From contig NZ_BAMW01000015.1 of assembly GCF_000963945.1 (NCBI RefSeq), forward strand, positions 62,001 through 126,000: DNA of 64,000 nt, read 5' to 3'. Shown here piece by piece: positions 17,535 to 25,034 of this stretch (position 1 is its first letter; every line of letters begins with the position of its first letter). The translations under genes and the position numbers were made by a program. Below the pieces are notes generated by a model. That model was not told the DNA's origin and searched no databases. It saw only the letters and a program-made list of their open reading frames with translations. Source of the DNA: Acetobacter indonesiensis (GTDB taxonomy: Bacteria > Pseudomonadota > Alphaproteobacteria > Acetobacterales > Acetobacteraceae).

Positions 17535-18290
17535 ATGCAGACTGTCATGCAGCCCGATATCACAGATTTTTATAACTCCCATGAAGGCGCTGTCTGCGCT
17601 GCGTTGATTCGTGAGCGGCTGCAATGGTTCTGGCCAGATCTGCGGCGGCAGTCGGTGCTGGGGGTTGGGTTCGCGCAGCCTTATCTTAGCGCGTGGCGCG
17701 GGCGTGGCGCTCTGTGCGTATCGGCCATCCTGCCAAGCCAGATCATGCCAATGCAAGATACCGCCGCGTCGGACGGTTTTTCGGTCTTTTCAAGGGAAGA
17801 TCGCTGCTGCGTGGTCGATGCCCAGCATCTTCCTTTCTGTGACGAAATGTTTGATCGTGTGCTGGTGGTTCATGCGCTTGAAAATGCGGAACAGGCCGTG
17901 ACTCTGCTACGCGCTGCCAGCCGTGTGTTGCGCGATGATGGACGTATTCTACTGATTGTCCCAAACAAAATCGGTGGGCGATTACGCCAGAAAAACACAC
18001 CTTTTGCACGCGATGCCCGGTTTACCCGTAACGGATTGAAAGCCGTTCTGGGCCGGGCCATGCTGCATATGGAAAGACGGGACGAAGCCTGTTTTCTGCC
18101 AGTTTTACGGGGGTACAGCACATTGGAGCGCGGCCGGGCGTCTGATATTGCCGGAAAAGTCTTTTGCCCCGGTCTCGGCAGTCTGATGTTGGTTGAAGCG
18201 GTTAAGGACGTTCATGCCGCATTACCCCTACCGGTTACGGCCAAGCGCTCATGGTTTCGTAAATCCGTGGTCGCCACGCAGGAATTTTAG
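17535..18290 (+). CDS. class I SAM-dependent methyltransferase
   Basis: A 251-residue methyltransferase of the Methyltransf_11 type. The motif I glycine stretch is SVLGVGFAQPYL, the motif II/III region includes CCVVDAQHLPFCDEMFDRVLVVHALE, and DDGRILLIVPN is the post-II segment. Substrate unknown. Head-to-head pairing of such a gene with gloB recurs in alphaproteobacteria to my knowledge, but the functional link is unproven. ATG 17535 has AGGAG six bases upstream in the shared divergent region. Confidence 0.8.
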   Translation: MQTVMQPDITDFYNSHEGAVCAALIRERLQWFWPDLRRQSVLGVGFAQPYLSAWRGRGALCVSAILPSQIMPMQDTAASDGFSVFSREDRCCVVDAQHLPFCDEMFDRVLVVHALENAEQAVTLLRAASRVLRDDGRILLIVPNKIGGRLRQKNTPFARDARFTRNGLKAVLGRAMLHMERRDEACFLPVLRGYSTLERGRASDIAGKVFCPGLGSLMLVEAVKDVHAALPLPVTAKRSWFRKSVVATQEF

Positions 18291-18493: not shown

Positions 18494-20188
18494 GTGTTAC
18501 TGGTGTGTGCAGGTGTTCTGTCTGTGCTTCCCGATCGGCTTTTGCGACAGGTTGCTCCCTGGCGGCCAGAAATACTGGCTGTGCTATGGGGGGGTATTGG
18601 CCTGTTGGCTGTTGTCGGGGCCAGCTTGCGTGTCGAAGGCGGTGTGAGTTGGTTTCCAGTCTTCGGCATGGATGGGCCGACACTTCCCATGCTTGTTCTG
18701 CTGGCCTTTACGGGCGGCGTCATAGGTAAAGGGTATCGCGGGCTGGCTTGTGTTCTCACTGGTCTTGCTTTTCTAGCGCTTTCGCCATTGGTTTTTGGTC
18801 TGTTGTCCGGGACGGCTCTGGTCATGCTGGCAGATCACGGACGGCAGGGAGTGTGCCTTCCGGCCGCAATTATTCCCGCCTGTATTCCTGCCGACAGCCC
18901 GCTTTCTCCACCTGCATTGTGCTTTATGGTGCTGCTGCTTGGCTGGGCGGTTTCCAGCCAGAAGGGGCCGCAGGCGCTGCTGCCTGCTGGCATCGGTCTG
19001 TTTCTGCTGGGGCGGTTGCTGGCAGAAGTAGGCGTTCTTTCTCCCATTGATCAGGGATTGCTGCTGCTCAGTGGTGGGGTTGTTGCATTAAGCGGCGGTG
19101 TGCAGGCGCTTCGAGTATCCTCGGCCAGTGGGGTAGCCAGCGGCCTGACAAGTGCGGGCTTTGGCGCACAGGTGCTGCTGCTAACACTGGCTCTTTCTAC
19201 GTCTTTGGAAGGCGCGGAACAGTTTCGTACGGCTACCTTACTGGGTATGGGAGCACCATTTCTGGCTCTGCTGGCATTGCTCTGGTTGTGCAAAAGTGAA
19301 GCAACTGACACGGACACGGCTGGCCAGCCGTTTTTTTCATCCGGCAGTCTGGTTGTTTCCTCTGTTGCCGGAAGAATGGCGTTGTCGGCAGCGCTTCTGA
19401 TGCTGTCTGGTTTGCCGCCGCTGGGTGGTTTTTCTGTTTTATGGTGTCTGCTGACTGCGGGTGAACTCGCGGCTGTGGGGGCTCAGCCAGTGCAGGCCTT
19501 GTGCACTATTCTGGTTCTGGTCTGCTCTGCCCTGCTTATGGTGCTCGGCCTGTTTGGCCTGATGCGGATTGGGCTGGAGGCTCTGGCTCCGTCACGGAAA
19601 GACGATGGTGTTATGCCGCAGGCGGCAAATGCCATGCTGGTGTTGCCCTCCGTCGTGTGTCTGGCCGTAGCCGCCGGCGTTGCCCTTTTGCCCGGCGGCT
19701 GGCTGGCATTGGTTGACCATTTGTTTGTGGGCACGTCTTCGCGTGATTTTACGTGGGCCAAAGTCGCAACCGTCTGGTTTGTTGATACCGCGGTCAGCTT
19801 CACCCCAGCTTTCTGTGTCTTGGCGCTGAGTGTGTGTGTCGGGGCGGTTGTGGGTGTAGGGCGAGTGCTCCGCCTGTATCCGTTCAGCCATGGCACGGCT
19901 GTGCGGGCGGAATGGTGTGACGGCGCCCCGGTTCTGACACGCGCGGGTGAGAGTGTGGCTGAAACAGAAGAGTCATCAGCCCAGATTTGGAGGATGCTCA
20001 CGGTTTTCCTTGGGCTTGATGGTAAGAACTTGGCCGAATGGCCGGTGGTCGAAAAAACGCAGGCCGGAGGGCATTACCTGCAAGGTCTGTTGTTCAAAGG
20101 GGTTGCCTGGTGTGAAGCACAGGGAATGGTTCTCATTCTGCTCTTTTTGGGGGCAGGACTGTTTCTGGGGCTGTTTGCAGGCAAATGA
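18494..20188 (+). CDS. hydrogenase-4 subunit B / NuoL-like membrane protein, degenerate
   Basis: A roughly 564-residue very hydrophobic protein, related to the proton-translocating antiporter-like subunits (HyfB/NuoL/NuoN). The clearest family trace is SGLPPLGGFSVLW, matching the SGLPPLNGF-type motif of HyfB. The usual central block with a conserved His-Pro and Lys-bearing transmembrane helices is absent, and the few lysines lie outside obvious helix centres. The start is doubtful: GTG 18494 has no ribosome-binding site, and the frame is open upstream to 18446 with no standard start codon. It opens a six-gene operon, overlapping the next gene by four bases. Confidence 0.7.
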   Translation: MLLVCAGVLSVLPDRLLRQVAPWRPEILAVLWGGIGLLAVVGASLRVEGGVSWFPVFGMDGPTLPMLVLLAFTGGVIGKGYRGLACVLTGLAFLALSPLVFGLLSGTALVMLADHGRQGVCLPAAIIPACIPADSPLSPPALCFMVLLLGWAVSSQKGPQALLPAGIGLFLLGRLLAEVGVLSPIDQGLLLLSGGVVALSGGVQALRVSSASGVASGLTSAGFGAQVLLLTLALSTSLEGAEQFRTATLLGMGAPFLALLALLWLCKSEATDTDTAGQPFFSSGSLVVSSVAGRMALSAALLMLSGLPPLGGFSVLWCLLTAGELAAVGAQPVQALCTILVLVCSALLMVLGLFGLMRIGLEALAPSRKDDGVMPQAANAMLVLPSVVCLAVAAGVALLPGGWLALVDHLFVGTSSRDFTWAKVATVWFVDTAVSFTPAFCVLALSVCVGAVVGVGRVLRLYPFSHGTAVRAEWCDGAPVLTRAGESVAETEESSAQIWRMLTVFLGLDGKNLAEWPVVEKTQAGGHYLQGLLFKGVAWCEAQGMVLILLFLGAGLFLGLFAGK

Positions 20189-21204
20189 CACACGTAACCA
20201 CACCAACGCCCCTGACGTGGGGATGGATTAGCCTTTCGATCCTGATGCTGGCTTTTCAAACAGCTTTGATGCTGGCTACAGCCCCGTTCTTCAGTGGGTG
20301 GGTTGACCGATTGGGTGGCCGCCTGACAGGGCAGAACCGCTATCGGTCGTCAGGCCGATGGCAGGAGATACGGCATCAATTTGTCCGGCCCGGCTATTTT
20401 GTTGCAGGCGACAGACTCAGCAGCCTTGGCTGCCGCAGCGGGTTTGTTCTGTCTGTTCTGGCTGCGGGCATGGTGCCTGTTTTTGCGTTGCTGCCTGCAG
20501 GGTTCCCGGCACCGGGGTTGTTGCTTGTCTGTGCTGTGCTGGTGGGTGCCTCACTGCTTCTTTGCCTGCCTTTGCTGGTTCAGCGACGGCATATGGTGCA
20601 GAACGCGTATATGGCCCTTATGGCAGAAAGCCTGTTGCTGCCAGCGCTGGTGCCCGTGTTGGTTATGGTGGGTGGGCAAGACCTTTCAGCCTTTCTGGCG
20701 CATGTGCGCAGTCTGTCGCCGTTGGGCAGCGGGGCCCCATTTGTGCTGATGGGTGTGGCCCTGTTTGCCGCTGCCGCATGGCGCGGACGGCAGGCGGGAG
20801 AAACTTCGGTCTGCCCTCTATCGGGGGCAGATCGTGGCCTGTGGTTACTGGCAACAGATATCGTGTTGCTGTGCTGGGTCACGCTGGCGGGCGATGTGGC
20901 ATGGGCTGGGTGTCTGGCGCTCCCGTCTGACGGTACGGTTGAAACGTGGCTGATGGAATGCCTGCAAGGCGGCAGCGCATGGCTTCTGAAATTGGTGGTA
21001 GCGGCAAGTCTTCTGGCGGTTACGCAGTTAATGGTGCTTCCGTTGCCCCGCCGCGCCCGTGTCCGTCTGGCGTCTGTGTTTCTGTTAGGGTTGCTGGCGT
21101 GGCAAGCGGCTTATCCAAGCCTTGCTCCTGCCGCAGTACAGGATAAAACAGCCTCCATTCAGGTTCAGGATCCTGCGTTGGGAGAAGAAGGGACACCCCA
21201 GTGA
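20185..21204 (+). CDS. HyfC / NuoH-like membrane subunit, degenerate
   Basis: A 339-residue membrane protein related to HyfC and NuoH, the subunit that links the peripheral arm to the membrane arm. The first helix and following loop, APFFSGWVDRLGGRLTGQ, match the APLFSGWVNRIKARLQG-type family start. After that the conserved RRGPSPLQPYRDLLKLL loop is replaced by NRYRSSGRWQEIRH, and the acidic residue of the AAAIKL-type helix is not evident (WLLATDIVLLC). At least eight hydrophobic segments. Its start codon overlaps the previous gene by four bases, as does its end with the next, indicating translational coupling. Confidence 0.72.
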   Translation: MTHVTTPTPLTWGWISLSILMLAFQTALMLATAPFFSGWVDRLGGRLTGQNRYRSSGRWQEIRHQFVRPGYFVAGDRLSSLGCRSGFVLSVLAAGMVPVFALLPAGFPAPGLLLVCAVLVGASLLLCLPLLVQRRHMVQNAYMALMAESLLLPALVPVLVMVGGQDLSAFLAHVRSLSPLGSGAPFVLMGVALFAAAAWRGRQAGETSVCPLSGADRGLWLLATDIVLLCWVTLAGDVAWAGCLALPSDGTVETWLMECLQGGSAWLLKLVVAASLLAVTQLMVLPLPRRARVRLASVFLLGLLAWQAAYPSLAPAAVQDKTASIQVQDPALGEEGTPQ

Positions 21205-21863
21205 CACTTGCTGCCATTCTGGCCCCTTTGCTGGCTTTGTGTGTTGTGGCCCGTGGGATGGGGTTTCTGCCTGCGTTAGGCGTGGTGACGGCCATTGCCA
21301 TTTTGGTTGATGGTCTGGAGCCGTTGCAACAGGTTGGCGCGGGTTTGGTGTTGGTGTTTTCCATCGGGCCAGCGTGGTTTCTTAGCTATTATCAACATGA
21401 CGGCGTGCAGGAACGGGGTGGCCCCGCTGTACCCTTTCTGGCGCTTGGCCTGATGGTTGTACTGCTGCTGGCCAGTGCCCGTTCGGGCTCGGCTGCCTTT
21501 CCGGCTGGCCTTTGTGTGGTGTTGGCCGGACTGGTGGCTGTTACGTGCCGCCATGCCATGGTGTGGCAGTGGGCGGGCCTGCTGACCTGCATCAACGGAA
21601 TTATGCTGGCGGGTGTTGTTGAAAAACAGATTATGGTGGTTGGGGTCACGGCTCTGGCCGGGTGCGTCATTGCCCTGTTGGGTGGCATGTGTGTGCATCG
21701 CGTCATGCCCCGTATTGCTGTAGTGCGGGCACCTGGCCGCGATGGCGATAAGAAAAAAGGCAAAAAACACAAATCATCCCAATCTGAGACGGGTTCTACG
21801 GGTGCGCCTCGTCCGGATTATGTGCCAAAGCCGCCTCTAGCCGATGCCGAGAGTGAGGCCTGA
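21201..21863 (+). CDS. HyfE-like membrane subunit, degenerate
   Basis: A 220-residue membrane protein matching HyfE in size and in one conserved region: RHAMVWQWAGLLTCINGI aligns with the HyfE pattern R-x4-Q-x2-G-x4-ENG. At the usual acidic position of that ENG motif there is Ile131, although Asn132 and Gly133 are kept. After about six hydrophobic segments comes a lysine-rich cytoplasmic tail (KKKGKKHK at about 181-190). HyfE corresponds to a NuoK-like membrane component in hydrogenase-4. It overlaps both neighbours by a few bases. Confidence 0.68.
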   Translation: MTLAAILAPLLALCVVARGMGFLPALGVVTAIAILVDGLEPLQQVGAGLVLVFSIGPAWFLSYYQHDGVQERGGPAVPFLALGLMVVLLLASARSGSAAFPAGLCVVLAGLVAVTCRHAMVWQWAGLLTCINGIMLAGVVEKQIMVVGVTALAGCVIALLGGMCVHRVMPRIAVVRAPGRDGDKKKGKKHKSSQSETGSTGAPRPDYVPKPPLADAESEA

Positions 21864-22984
21864 TGACCATTCCCGTTTTTCTGGCTGCTTTAGCATTTGC
21901 GTGGCCGTTACTTGGGGCCGCTGTGGTCATGAGCGTCTCGACACCCCGTAGTCGCGACGTTGCTGTCTGGATGGCAGGCATAGGTTGTCTTCTGGCTTTG
22001 GCGGTTTTTCTTTTCCCCGCAACCGGGGCGGTCGCCACGGGTTGGGATGATGACCCGGTGCAACGGGCGGGCCGTGTCATGCTGGCCTGTGGCCTGTTGC
22101 TGACCGTGTTGGAAAGCCGGGATATGGCTGACCGGTTTCTTCGGGGGCTGCCACATGTTTCAACGGCGCTGGCCGGTCTGGCATGTGTTGCGCCAGACCC
22201 TGTTATCGGTCTGGGTATTCTTGAAGCCTCACTCGCCTACGGCGTGTTTGTGTTCAGCCGCCCCGCCGGGCAGGCGCGGGCAGGGTGGGCGCTGGTACGT
22301 ACGGGGTCTGTTGGTATTTTTCTGGTTCTGGCAGGGCTTCTTTTGCCCGTTGGCTCACCCTCCGCAGGGCTGATGATGGCCTGTGGCATTGTCATGCTGG
22401 CGGGTTTGACGCCGTTTGGGCAGCCTTGGCGGGCAGAAAACGATACTTTCCTGTTTCTCCCGTTTGCCGGTGCGGCACTGTTACTCGCAATGCGGCTACG
22501 CGTACATGGTGGTGAGGCGTTCGATAACGCGCTGGTTGCCGCTGGTTTGGCATCGGTATGGTTGACTGCCTGTGCTGGCCGTTCAGATGATGGCATGCGC
22601 TTGTTCCGTACGTTCCCTTCGGCGCTGGCGCTGATTGCTGTTGGGGCACAGGCGGATGTAGCGGCGTTGCTGTTCCTGTGCGGCTGGTGTCTGGCAGGGG
22701 GCAGCCGTTCTGGTAGGTCTTGGGCGGCGCGGGCGTTGGCCTGCTTTCCGCCGGGTGCGCCTTTTGTGGGGTGCCTTTTGCTTTTATCCATGATGAGCGA
22801 CTGGTCATGGATTTTCACCGTGCTGACGGTTGCCGGGATTCTGTGTGCCGTGGTGCGTGCAGTCCCTGCTGGTGGCTTTGGCCGGGATATCTGGCCGGAT
22901 GATGTTGCTGGCCGTATGGCGTGCTCCGTTTTGGTTTTGACCGGATTTCTGGTGCCGCTGGCCATGATGTTGGGAGCATTCTGA
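21863..22984 (+). CDS. HyfF / NuoN-like membrane subunit, lysine-free
   Basis: A 373-residue hydrophobic protein with about ten membrane segments. Its position between the HyfE-like and HyfG-like genes and its character suggest the HyfF (NuoN-like antiporter) subunit. It is much shorter than HyfF (over 500 residues). I find no lysine anywhere in the sequence, whereas canonical antiporter-like subunits rely on several conserved membrane lysines. Similarity beyond operon position is weak, so the name is an inference from context. The start overlaps the previous stop by one base, and its stop overlaps the next start by one base. Confidence 0.6.
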   Translation: MTIPVFLAALAFAWPLLGAAVVMSVSTPRSRDVAVWMAGIGCLLALAVFLFPATGAVATGWDDDPVQRAGRVMLACGLLLTVLESRDMADRFLRGLPHVSTALAGLACVAPDPVIGLGILEASLAYGVFVFSRPAGQARAGWALVRTGSVGIFLVLAGLLLPVGSPSAGLMMACGIVMLAGLTPFGQPWRAENDTFLFLPFAGAALLLAMRLRVHGGEAFDNALVAAGLASVWLTACAGRSDDGMRLFRTFPSALALIAVGAQADVAALLFLCGWCLAGGSRSGRSWAARALACFPPGAPFVGCLLLLSMMSDWSWIFTVLTVAGILCAVVRAVPAGGFGRDIWPDDVAGRMACSVLVLTGFLVPLAMMLGAF

Positions 22985-24486
22985 TGGATGCCGAAGCCCA
23001 TATCCGCGCAGGCGCGGAAACGGAAACACCGTGGCGCTACCGGCTGGATGAACTGGCATGGCGCGATCTTGTCGATGGGCTAAAGCAGTCTCATCTGCCG
23101 TTTGTTGGGGTGTGGTGTGACGGCGTGGATGTTCACGCCTTGTTTTTACCCCACGGGGTTCAGCCTCTGGCTGCCACGCTGGCACTGGAGGACGGGCGTT
23201 ACCCGGCTTTGTCACCCGCACGGGCAGTCTCCAGCCTGTATGAACGCATGATATTTGACCTGTATGGGGCCGAGGCTATGTGGGCCACGGATGTTCGACC
23301 TCTGGTTGACCATGAGGTCTGGTCGAACACGACCCCATTAGCAGCGTCCCCCGGCCCGGCAGGTGGCCATAAGGGGATGATAGCGTTCCAGCCATCTGAC
23401 GCATGGGCCGCAGAGACGGTAGGCGTCATGACCGGAATTGGCCCCGCTACGGGGGCCAGAGAAACACCGCTGCACACGGCCCTGGTGCTTGATGGGGAGA
23501 CGATTACAAGGGCTGAAACACTCAGCGGCTATGCCCATAGGGGACTCACGCAGCGGTGGAAAAATAGCCGCGTTGATGATGCCTGTCGGTTAAGCGGACG
23601 TGTCGTAGCTGGGTGCTCTGCTGCGCATCAGGTTGCCTTCTGTCAGGCGGTCGAGGCTGCATGCGGTGAAACCATAGGGCATGAAGTCGCCCAACTCCGC
23701 GTTGTCTTGCTGGAGTTGGAGCGCTGCTTACAGCATCTCTACACCTTGGGAGGGCTGGCGCGGGAAGCCGGGGCTCTGTTGGTCTCTTCCCGCTGCATGT
23801 GGTTTCGGGAACAAATCCTGACAGAAACCGCGCCCGTGATTGGGTCTCGTCTGTTGATGGACCATTGCGTACCGGGTGGTGTGAACCTGCGCGCTGCAAC
23901 TGAAATTGGTACGCTCTGCACCCGCATTGCTGAACTGGGCGAGGAAATTTACCCGACACTGGTGGAGCTCTGGCAAGGGTATGCCGGTCTTGCAGGGCGG
24001 ATGGCTGGTGTCGGTGTGGTGAATAGCGCTGTATTGGAGCAGGTAGGGCTGGATGGTCCGGTTGCCCGCGCAGGCGGAGGAGATTGTGACTGCCGACGCG
24101 ATTTGCGGATGTATGATGGGTTGTGGCGTTTTACGGCAGGCCGCCATGATGGCAGCGTAGAAGACCGAGCCGCCGTGTTGCTGGATGAGATAGGCGAAAG
24201 CCTGCGCATGTTGACCGAACTGGGCCCCCGCCTTGGCCTGACAGCCGGTGGCCGTATTGACCTGACCTACCCCGACGGTGAGGGTGTCGGCATGGCGGAA
24301 GGCCCATGGGGCACTATTCTTTACTGGGTCAGATTGCAGAATGGGCGTGTTGATCAGGTCTTTATGCGCGACCCGTCAGCATCTGCATTGCTGGCCTACG
24401 AGGCGGCGCTCCCCGGTCAGGCTGTGGCGGATATCGGGTTGATCCGGGCATCGCTAGGTGTCAACGCAGCCGCGCTGGATGGGTAA
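22984..24486 (+). CDS. HyfG-like large subunit (NuoC-NuoD fusion) lacking NiFe ligands
   Basis: A 500-residue homologue of the hydrogenase-4/formate hydrogenlyase large subunit. A NuoC-like domain (about 1-130, with YERMIFDLYG) precedes a NuoD-like domain starting with YAHRGL at about 183. The hydrogenase motif RVCGxC..H reads RVVAGCSAAH (206-215): the first Cys is Val208, the second is Cys211. The C-terminal DPCxxC aligns with GVNAAA (492-497), so both ligands are missing and the protein ends right there. EGPWGTILYW and LIRASL align well with the HycE/HyfG C-terminal region. Hydrogenase activity is therefore very unlikely; a scaffold or quinone-related role is possible. Confidence 0.88.
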   Translation: MDAEAHIRAGAETETPWRYRLDELAWRDLVDGLKQSHLPFVGVWCDGVDVHALFLPHGVQPLAATLALEDGRYPALSPARAVSSLYERMIFDLYGAEAMWATDVRPLVDHEVWSNTTPLAASPGPAGGHKGMIAFQPSDAWAAETVGVMTGIGPATGARETPLHTALVLDGETITRAETLSGYAHRGLTQRWKNSRVDDACRLSGRVVAGCSAAHQVAFCQAVEAACGETIGHEVAQLRVVLLELERCLQHLYTLGGLAREAGALLVSSRCMWFREQILTETAPVIGSRLLMDHCVPGGVNLRAATEIGTLCTRIAELGEEIYPTLVELWQGYAGLAGRMAGVGVVNSAVLEQVGLDGPVARAGGGDCDCRRDLRMYDGLWRFTAGRHDGSVEDRAAVLLDEIGESLRMLTELGPRLGLTAGGRIDLTYPDGEGVGMAEGPWGTILYWVRLQNGRVDQVFMRDPSASALLAYEAALPGQAVADIGLIRASLGVNAAALDG

Positions 24487-24521
24487 ATCATGCCGCTTGT
24501 AATGAAGAAAGACAGACAGTC

Positions 24522-25034
24522 ATGGGCCTGATACGTGCCGTATTTGACGCCGCGTTTCGGCAGGGTGGAACGCGCCTGAAACCTGTTGGCCCACGCTGGC
24601 CTCTTCTGCTGTTTCATGTCGATACTGGCGGTTGTGGTGGTTGCGGAATGGAACTGGAGGCTCTGGGCGCAGGGGCCTATGACGTGCAGGGCGCAGGCTT
24701 CGGCTTTGTGCAATCGCCCCGTGCTGCCGACGTATTGCTGATAACCGGATCCCTGACCCGGACAATGGCCCCTGTGCTTGAAGCCGCATGGCAGGCAATG
24801 CCTACCCCGAAAGGCGTTATCTGCGTGGGGAATTGCGCAATAGATGGAGGCTTTTTCCCGGAAAACTATACGACCATGGGCGGACTGGACCGCAAGGTTC
24901 GGATAGATCTGCGTATTCCCGGCTGCCCCCCAACACCGTTGCAGGTGCTGGAAGGTTTGTGCTCACTGTTCGGCAAACGCCCGGAAGGCGAGACCTCGGC
25001 AGATCACGGAGCCGGTTCTTCGACGTCTTCCTGA
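24522..25034 (+). CDS. HyfI / NuoB-like small iron-sulfur subunit
   Basis: A 170-residue homologue of HyfI/HycG/NuoB, which carries the terminal [4Fe-4S] cluster. The four likely ligands are present: Cys38 and Cys41 (GGCGGCGMEL), Cys105 in CVGNCAIDGG and Cys135 in PGCPPTP. The CxxC arrangement is of the hydrogenase-small-subunit kind rather than the tandem Cys of NuoB. So the electron-carrying cluster is kept while the NiFe site of its partner is lost. It is the last gene of the operon, starting 35 bases after the large subunit, and its 3' end overlaps the convergent pssA by about 30 bases. Confidence 0.88.
   Translation: MGLIRAVFDAAFRQGGTRLKPVGPRWPLLLFHVDTGGCGGCGMELEALGAGAYDVQGAGFGFVQSPRAADVLLITGSLTRTMAPVLEAAWQAMPTPKGVICVGNCAIDGGFFPENYTTMGGLDRKVRIDLRIPGCPPTPLQVLEGLCSLFGKRPEGETSADHGAGSSTSS

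Follow-up and report, generated by a model that had tools for sequence, protein, structure and literature searches.

Ehr-type complexes and the Acetobacter operon

Complexes related to the energy-converting hydrogenases (Ehr) have been described that lack the NiFe ligands, and the sections of the literature that deal with them give their function as unknown or uninvestigated (PMC6349859, PMC10284858, PMC12342949, PMC7894505); one of these sections suspects charge translocation from the presence of Mrp-like subunits (PMC6349859). Here, we analyzed a 64,000-nucleotide stretch of an Acetobacter genome (A. indonesiensis contig NZ_BAMW01000015.1; the whole stretch is called the window below), which carries a six-gene hyfB-C-E-F-G-I operon, arranged head to tail on the + strand at 18494-25034 (Table 1). 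The operon is Ehr by descent and by its missing ligands, yet at the residue level its predicted products fail the expectation of energy coupling: judged from the alignments, the membrane arm has lost nearly all of its ion-carrying residues, a change that was missed in a preliminary description made from this DNA alone. The hyfG gene is 78% identical to that of A. senegalensis and 77% to that of A. tropicalis.

As far as the sections cited above describe them, the Ehr complexes of Geobacter, Nitrospira, and others resemble the window operon in having large and small subunits of the group 4 type in which the NiFe CxxC motifs are missing, and HyfE-like and NuoL-like membrane subunits. The comparison with Geobacter and Nitrospira is one of description and not of sequence. 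The window operon differs in that it also lacks the ion-translocation residues, the beta1-beta2 Glu, the canopy residues, and a ferredoxin subunit. Its Mrp/NuoL-, NuoH-, and HyfE-like membrane subunits match no family model and were assigned from gene order and profile comparison, and the antiporter Lys/Glu and E-channel residues expected of redox-coupled ion translocation are not seen in the sequences. A closer comparison is offered by Ehr operons that are pump-intact, some from the window's own family (for example, loci L052, L054, and L058) and others from different alphaproteobacterial families (L139-L158). These contain the same kinds of gene, have no NiFe Cys pair, and mostly keep the HyfI cysteines; the order hyfB-C-E-F-G-I was shown for L052, L054, and L058. 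Unlike the window operon, they keep the Lys motif of transmembrane helix (TM) 7, and in L052, L054, and L058 the Glu of the HyfC EYSG motif and that of HyfE are also present.

With the E. coli formate hydrogenlyase (FHL; HycBCDEFG) and hydrogenase-4 (Hyf), the operon shares, by sequence, a fused NuoCD-type large subunit and a HycG-type small subunit, its membrane arm being named after Hyf by gene order and profile; it differs in having neither the NiFe ligands nor a HycB/HycF-type ferredoxin gene, and in a host without HypD. No formate dehydrogenase was present among the identified flanking genes, the genome itself not having been searched for one. Complex I (NDH-1) has homologous NuoB, NuoCD, NuoH, and antiporter-type subunits, whereas the window operon has no NADH-module or NuoI genes, antiporter lysines, or loop glutamates; the host also possesses a true complex I, with NuoD and NuoF together on another contig. 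The hyc-type locus Rv0082-Rv0087 of Mycobacterium tuberculosis is a further six-gene set (NuoB/L/H/HyfE/N/HycE) without a ferredoxin subunit. A loss of pump residues in an Ehr-type complex was not found described in the open-licence PMC literature, which does not establish its absence from print.

Loss of the NiFe site in HyfG

The hyfG open reading frame (ORF) is uninterrupted over its 500-residue translation, which has Cys at positions 45, 201, 211, 220, 227, 248, 271, 295, 312, 368, and 370. It matches E. coli HycE (7z0s_E) with E = 1.6e-18 in phmmer. HycE numbering was set by an offset of 12, which put the right letter at each of nine control residues, and in the alignment so numbered HycE C241 and C244 correspond to V208 and C211. 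The phmmer match ends short of the C-terminal motif, and the placement of D529, C531, and C534 is that of a MAFFT alignment, which sets SLGVNAAALDG against the DPCxxC region. The four ligand positions read V208, C211, N494, and A497; three of the four NiFe cysteines are absent, and the preliminary description was correct in reading Val208 for the first Cys of RVCGxC and, on the MAFFT alignment, GVNAAA for DPCxxC. The remaining Cys varies among relatives: across 11 Acetobacter rows, the Cys211 position is C in four, S in three, Q in two, and A and V in one each, and only 4/47 rows of the 47-row clade described below have Cys there.

Displaced but conserved CxxC pairs, which could have overturned this result, were rejected because no C-x2-C motif occurs anywhere in the 500 residues. 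Sequencing error in the motif regions was likewise rejected, as the aligned relatives also lack the pair, true hydrogenase L093 excepted. An aligned CxxC pair was present in no row of an alignment of the window with 39 loci (these include the window's own copy, one complex I NuoD, and one duplicate), in which a single Cys was found at the first position in L015 and L022 and at the second in eight rows, including the window and its copy. Among 87 Acetobacteraceae loci, only L093, serving as a positive control, has both Cys pairs. L093 (genome G029, a 1.9 Mb family member with HypD) encodes a group-4-type NiFe hydrogenase large subunit.

In the source genome, neither HypD nor a PF00374 match at 1e-10 was found; HypD was present in four of 25 genomes, exactly the four with a PF00374 match at that threshold. 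Both features of a group 4 [NiFe] hydrogenase, the two CxxC pairs and HypD, are therefore missing, and HyfG, on its sequence, cannot be a NiFe hydrogenase, with which the missing HypD of the host agrees. HyfG reaches only 20.6 bits against PF00374, under the 25.8 cut-off, and NuoD and PF00346 match better. The assignment to a NuoC-NuoD fusion of the HyfG/HycE type is upheld, but to say that it aligns well was too generous. The best solved relative by sequence is 6cfw_L (1.1e-22), the alpha subunit of the Pyrococcus MBH, followed by HycE of E. coli FHL. Descent of the operon from group 4 hydrogenases as an Ehr-type complex is supported by these comparisons; the earlier placement among Ehr-like non-hydrogenases holds, but "energy-converting" is unsupported for this operon because the residues for ion translocation and those for protons in the pocket are lost.

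Loss of ion-translocation residues in the membrane arm

Residues were mapped on L052 as a reference, whose membrane subunits are canonical (PF00361 at 2.3e-44 and 1.4e-42; PF00146 at 8.7e-38); helix numbers are approximate, and for one HyfC motif the reference gave no match. Eight HyfB positions were followed: the TM5 Glu, the TM7 Lys and His, the TM8 Lys, the DLK Lys, the TM10 His and Lys, and the TM12 Glu. Five pump-intact loci retain 8/8, and the window HyfB retains 0/8 (two gapped). The window HyfF keeps one of seven mapped residues, the TM5 Glu (E121), four valid HyfF control rows being left as that of L050 is a wrong-frame ORF. Independently of any alignment, the 373 residues of this HyfF contain no Lys. 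HyfC retains 2/8 (Arg46 and Asp216) and no glutamate of the mapped set, its LEYSG loop having become PLSG with the Glu replaced by P211 and two further glutamates gapped; in HyfE, the LENG glutamate is Ile131. In L044, L046, L051, and L053, from two other genera, HyfB, HyfC, and HyfF together are without Lys.

An alignment-free TM7 motif (K.G..P.[HQ].W) was absent from 54 of the 87 family loci and present in 27; the other six could not be assessed. Each of the 54 shows at least three membrane ORFs, and they include one twice-fetched locus and one broken copy. Outside the family, the motif was present in 20/20 loci from 18 genomes, some of the loci being ended by contig ends; a stricter motif gave fewer HyfF matches there, and the stricter scan missed one HyfC motif (L154) and four HyfE motifs (L141, L146, L151, and L155). 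One motif-less locus, L051, has a HyfB that still matches PF00361 (3.7e-7). In L140 (genome G439, 0.9 Mb and rated 100% complete), an Ehr-type operon is kept whose subunits include at least one with the antiporter motif. E. coli HycC itself is without the TM7 Lys, according to the section of PMC9474812 that deals with it. Loss of this single Lys is thus not unusual; loss of the near-complete set is.

None of the four membrane ORFs of the window has a Pfam or NCBIfam match at E <= 0.01, and the label "hydrogenase-4-like" therefore depends on gene order and profile comparison. In hhalign, Acetobacter profiles matched those of pump-intact loci at 6.6e-6 (84.7%) for HyfB, 2.3e-10 for HyfC, and 2.5e-5 for HyfE; each subunit paired best with its positional counterpart, all off-diagonal values being 0.015 or worse. 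The Acetobacter-only HyfF profile matched pump-intact HyfF weakly (E 0.0041, 8% probability, 27 columns), and widening it with other genera of the clade gave 2.6e-9. AlphaFold models, each built from eight Acetobacter rows, had a mean predicted local distance difference test score (pLDDT) of 49.5 for HyfF and 46.6 for HyfB. With Foldseek, the first 24 matches of the HyfF model were complex I antiporter-type chains (best E 5.5e-3, none <= 0.001), as were the first 19 PDB matches of the HyfB model (seven <= 0.001); coming from low-confidence models, these fold matches lend weak support to an antiporter-type identity.

The former NiFe pocket

The roles of the HycE pocket residues are taken from the relevant part of PMC9474812. 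Both canopy residues are changed in the window HyfG (S283 to Q250 and R478 to W442), and the beta1-beta2 pair D192/E193 is E160/T161; H284, R395, and E437 are retained as H251, R362, and E402. In the 28 pump-intact rows from the family, the beta1-beta2 Glu is kept in 28/28 and the canopy Arg in 27/28, and N stands at D529 in 26/28, S at C531 in 27/28, and S at C241 in 27/28. The 47-row clade has the beta1-beta2 Glu in one row (seven gapped) and the canopy Arg in 20, which the 11 close Acetobacter rows all replace by Trp; Gly occupies the D529 position in 40/47 rows, and the other pocket positions are mixed. As read from these alignments, the pump-intact Ehr pocket is re-set yet uniform, and that of the clade is without most of its proton-handling residues.

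The HyfI cluster ligands and putative electron entry

The proximal (N2-type) [4Fe-4S] cluster of the complex I superfamily is bound in the NuoB-type subunit, and all four cysteines are present in the window HyfI (CCCC; motifs GGCGGC, GNC, and PGCP). All four were found in 46/48 rows of the window's group and in 34/35 other rows, the exceptions in the group, L086 and the G001 copy, concerning one Cys each. Thirteen loci without hyfI had suggested its loss, which was rejected for the genomes tested, as a match was found elsewhere: 23 of 24 genomes have a HyfI match, and the exception, G066, is also without hyfG. In seven genomes (G022, G008, G149, G085, G001, G037, and G046), this match is unlinked to hyfG, being on a different contig or at a distance of hundreds of kb. 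The stop encountered in the hyfI search of G101 lies, by coordinates, at the gene's own end. Because the cluster protein is both retained and decaying together with the large subunit, a redox or sensing role is indicated.

In the stretches fetched for the loci of the 47-row clade, no ORF with a ferredoxin motif was found, nor was there a NuoI/HyfA-type ferredoxin gene at the window locus; across the entire window, the one match to a ferredoxin motif is an other-frame stretch with stops nearby.

Distribution of the motif-less form

A hyfG match at 1e-5 was obtained in 294 of 299 drawn Acetobacteraceae genomes, a count that includes true complex I NuoD; true NuoD scores about 1e-7 to 1e-17, and most Ehr-type large subunits 1e-20 or better. 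A class-wide draw of 192 genomes yielded 21 with a match at 1e-20, of which 18 are outside the family. An intact Ehr-type large subunit was present in 35 of 40 closely examined family genomes, which were chosen rather than drawn at random. By hidden Markov model (HMM), the order B, C, G, I is identical in 26 loci (six named Acetobacter and 20 others, six of the 20 from the same genus), although E gave no match in L048, L049, and L057, and F was assigned from its position wherever its own HMM failed. In the distant loci L060-L070, HyfB went undetected by HMM, as mostly did HyfC; nine loci viewed directly (seven distant, two from genus g46) have membrane ORFs in matching places, with one hidden by reading-frame overlap in some of them.

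A maximum-likelihood tree was made of 85 large subunits (84 labelled), leaving out L095 (broken), L098 (the same place as L043), and L073 (a fragment); its bootstrap had not settled. One clade of 47 rows (100/99), all without the motif, contains Acetobacter and 19 other genera, and from kinship and genome size would correspond to the acetic acid bacteria lineage; within it, the window groups with four other Acetobacter rows (99/99). The tree label "lost" means not assessable for L085, L087, L093, and L108, and L119 is intact by a looser motif only. Five assessable rows outside the clade (L057, L077, L082, L097, and L114) are also motif-less, so pump residues were likely lost there as well. Three genomes have both kinds of operon, without and with the motif, respectively: G083 (L114/L115), G062 (L082/L081), and G096 (L097/L096). 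They would be useful for comparing the two forms within one cell.

Selection and retention

The ratio of nonsynonymous to synonymous substitution rates (dN/dS, NG86) was calculated for the six genes in seven Acetobacter pairs, with one value not computable, and ranged from 0.011 to 0.169. Values were 0.013-0.054 for HyfF and 0.018-0.092 for HyfI, HyfF being the lowest of the operon in 4/7 pairs; those of the nearby pssA, psd, and gloB were 0.048-0.096. Four pairs from other genera gave 0.043-0.124 for hyfG and hyfI (three values not computable). By this measure, the complex is under purifying selection. One A. okinawensis record (JCM 25146, L010) has hyfG split over two frames, and another (L009) is intact.

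NuoF was absent (1e-30) from 12 of 62 genomes. Of these 12, 11 retain hyfG and have no second large-subunit match; the remaining genome, G066, has neither. These 11 genomes are of 1.9-2.6 Mb and 99-100% complete, several of them drafts.

A proposed decoupled redox module and its alternatives

The reading that we prefer, with a probability of roughly 0.4, is that the products form a decoupled, single-cluster, membrane-anchored redox module, which may deliver electrons to quinone. By sequence, this Ehr-type relative of complex I and the group 4 hydrogenases has lost, in the lineage of Acetobacter, most of its pocket proton donors and nearly all membrane ion residues in addition to the NiFe site, which the pump-intact Ehr examined lack too. 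The six genes that survive would encode a membrane complex whose one [4Fe-4S] cluster, in HyfI, lies next to the emptied HyfG pocket. As to assembly, donor, acceptor, and function, we infer the following. A cytosolic donor would reduce the exposed HyfI cluster directly, as is suggested by the lack of a ferredoxin-motif ORF at the loci, and from there the electron would go to a small acceptor, ubiquinone or another, that enters the pocket by way of HyfC, the energy being dissipated rather than conserved. For the lineage as a whole, it is close to an even bet that this is a permanently uncoupled complex I-type machine, in which four ion-carrying subunits are kept as a scaffold without charged channel residues in a non-pumping redox or sensing module that is retained even where complex I has been lost. 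Several points weigh against the redox module. The acceptor is the weakest of them: Thermus His38 and Tyr87, the complex I residues at the quinone, align with HyfG E160 and A209 and are not conserved, so a quinone site is suggested by position only. The HyfF and HyfB models are too poor to reveal new ion paths. In addition, dN/dS was 0.24-0.60 in two pairs from further non-Acetobacter genera, indicating weaker constraint there; hyfG is in pieces in G126, where a stop also interrupts the hyfI match close to its beginning; and G116 and G066 have no Ehr-type match, so the complex is dispensable for some.

The last of these points, with the long branches and the very low similarity to canonical subunits, are what a decaying relic without function would leave, but this is very improbable and for Acetobacter largely refuted: the dN/dS values there can be set against those of pssA, psd, and gloB, gene order is preserved, and the operon persists in the 11 small genomes without NuoF. 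The same constraint can be turned to a structural, regulatory, or redox-sensing pseudo-complex that is not an enzyme, with the Fe-S cluster as sensor or stabilizer, since gene order and purifying selection persist where nearly all catalytic and ion-path residues are gone, in 4/7 Acetobacter pairs most tightly in HyfF with its single translocation residue, and since the pocket positions vary across the clade. We regard this as a serious and only slightly lesser possibility, the near-invariant cluster cysteines and the keeping of hyfI even when unlinked fitting a working redox center at least equally; a non-catalytic scaffold or sensor is about as likely as non-pumping electron transfer. A remodelled reductase, in which a new small substrate occupies the vacated HyfG pocket and is reduced by the HyfI cluster, has a precedent in the changed substrate of the related MBS of Pyrococcus, as described in part of PMC9474812, and the uniform pocket of the pump-intact Ehr suggests a defined ligand. 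It is unlikely for the clade, whose positions are mixed except for the Gly at D529 and whose beta1-beta2 Glu is almost gone. Even less probable is an ion pump that still works through other residues. Charged residues do remain in hydrophobic stretches, such as HyfF E121 and D265 and HyfB E178, and the FHL section of PMC9474812 reports, beside the HycC without a TM7 Lys, six HycC point mutants with no significant in-vivo loss of H2 production; on the other side stand the four loci with no Lys at all in HyfB, HyfF, and HyfC, and the loss of the HyfC loop glutamates and the HyfE Glu along with the antiporter residues.

Whether as a redox module or otherwise, the complex probably does something new for its enzyme family, and it would be an uncharacterized membrane complex widespread in the vinegar-bacteria lineage. 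Genes of this kind are usually annotated as parts of hydrogenase-4 or NADH dehydrogenase. Complex I still poses the question of how electron transfer and ion pumping are coupled, and one family here holds a natural series, from a NiFe hydrogenase (L093) through Ehr with pump residues to Ehr without them, that could serve as a natural test of which residues are for pumping and which for folding or assembly only.

Gene neighborhood

Table 1. Genes of the hyf-like operon in the window, with the evidence for each assignment.
Feature	Position	Strand	Evidence
hyfB-like antiporter-type subunit, 564 aa	18494..20188	+	hhalign, residue table, low-confidence model
hyfC-like (NuoH/HycD-type) subunit, 339 aa	20185..21204	+	hhalign, residue table
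hyfE-like subunit, 220 aa	21201..21863	+	hhalign 2.5e-5, residue table
hyfF-like antiporter-type subunit, 373 aa	21863..22984	+	wider profile 2.6e-9, residue table
hyfG-like large subunit (NuoC-NuoD / HycE type), 500 aa	22984..24486	+	phmmer, alignments
hyfI-like small subunit (NuoB / HycG type), 170 aa	24522..25034	+	PF01058 1.8e-26

The neighboring genes are housekeeping ones (pssA, psd, a methyltransferase, gloB, an aldo/keto reductase, and holC), and a functional partner identified through the neighborhood was rejected, as the neighbors are mostly convergent or conserved by synteny. A UbiE-like S-adenosylmethionine (SAM) methyltransferase gene lies upstream of hyfB at 17535-18290 (+); it is probably outside the complex, because its relatives sit between psd and gloB in other genera. 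An aldo/keto reductase gene immediately precedes hyfB, in the same orientation, in several genera (L044-L046, L049-L053, L055, and others); this adjacency occurs both with and without the pump residues. Elsewhere, hyfI is directly upstream of an NrtR-type regulator gene (L128-L131, L134, and L135, and also L080, L091, and L138), which in six hyfI loci of one sub-lineage is followed by nadA-nadB-nadC for de novo NAD synthesis. The hyfI-nad adjacency may reflect a link in function or residual synteny, and an ancestral proximity of nad and hyf could explain it without function; like the aldo/keto reductase, the nad neighbors are leads rather than evidence. The nad genes are also found near pssA/psd/gloB in L063-L065, L136, and L137.

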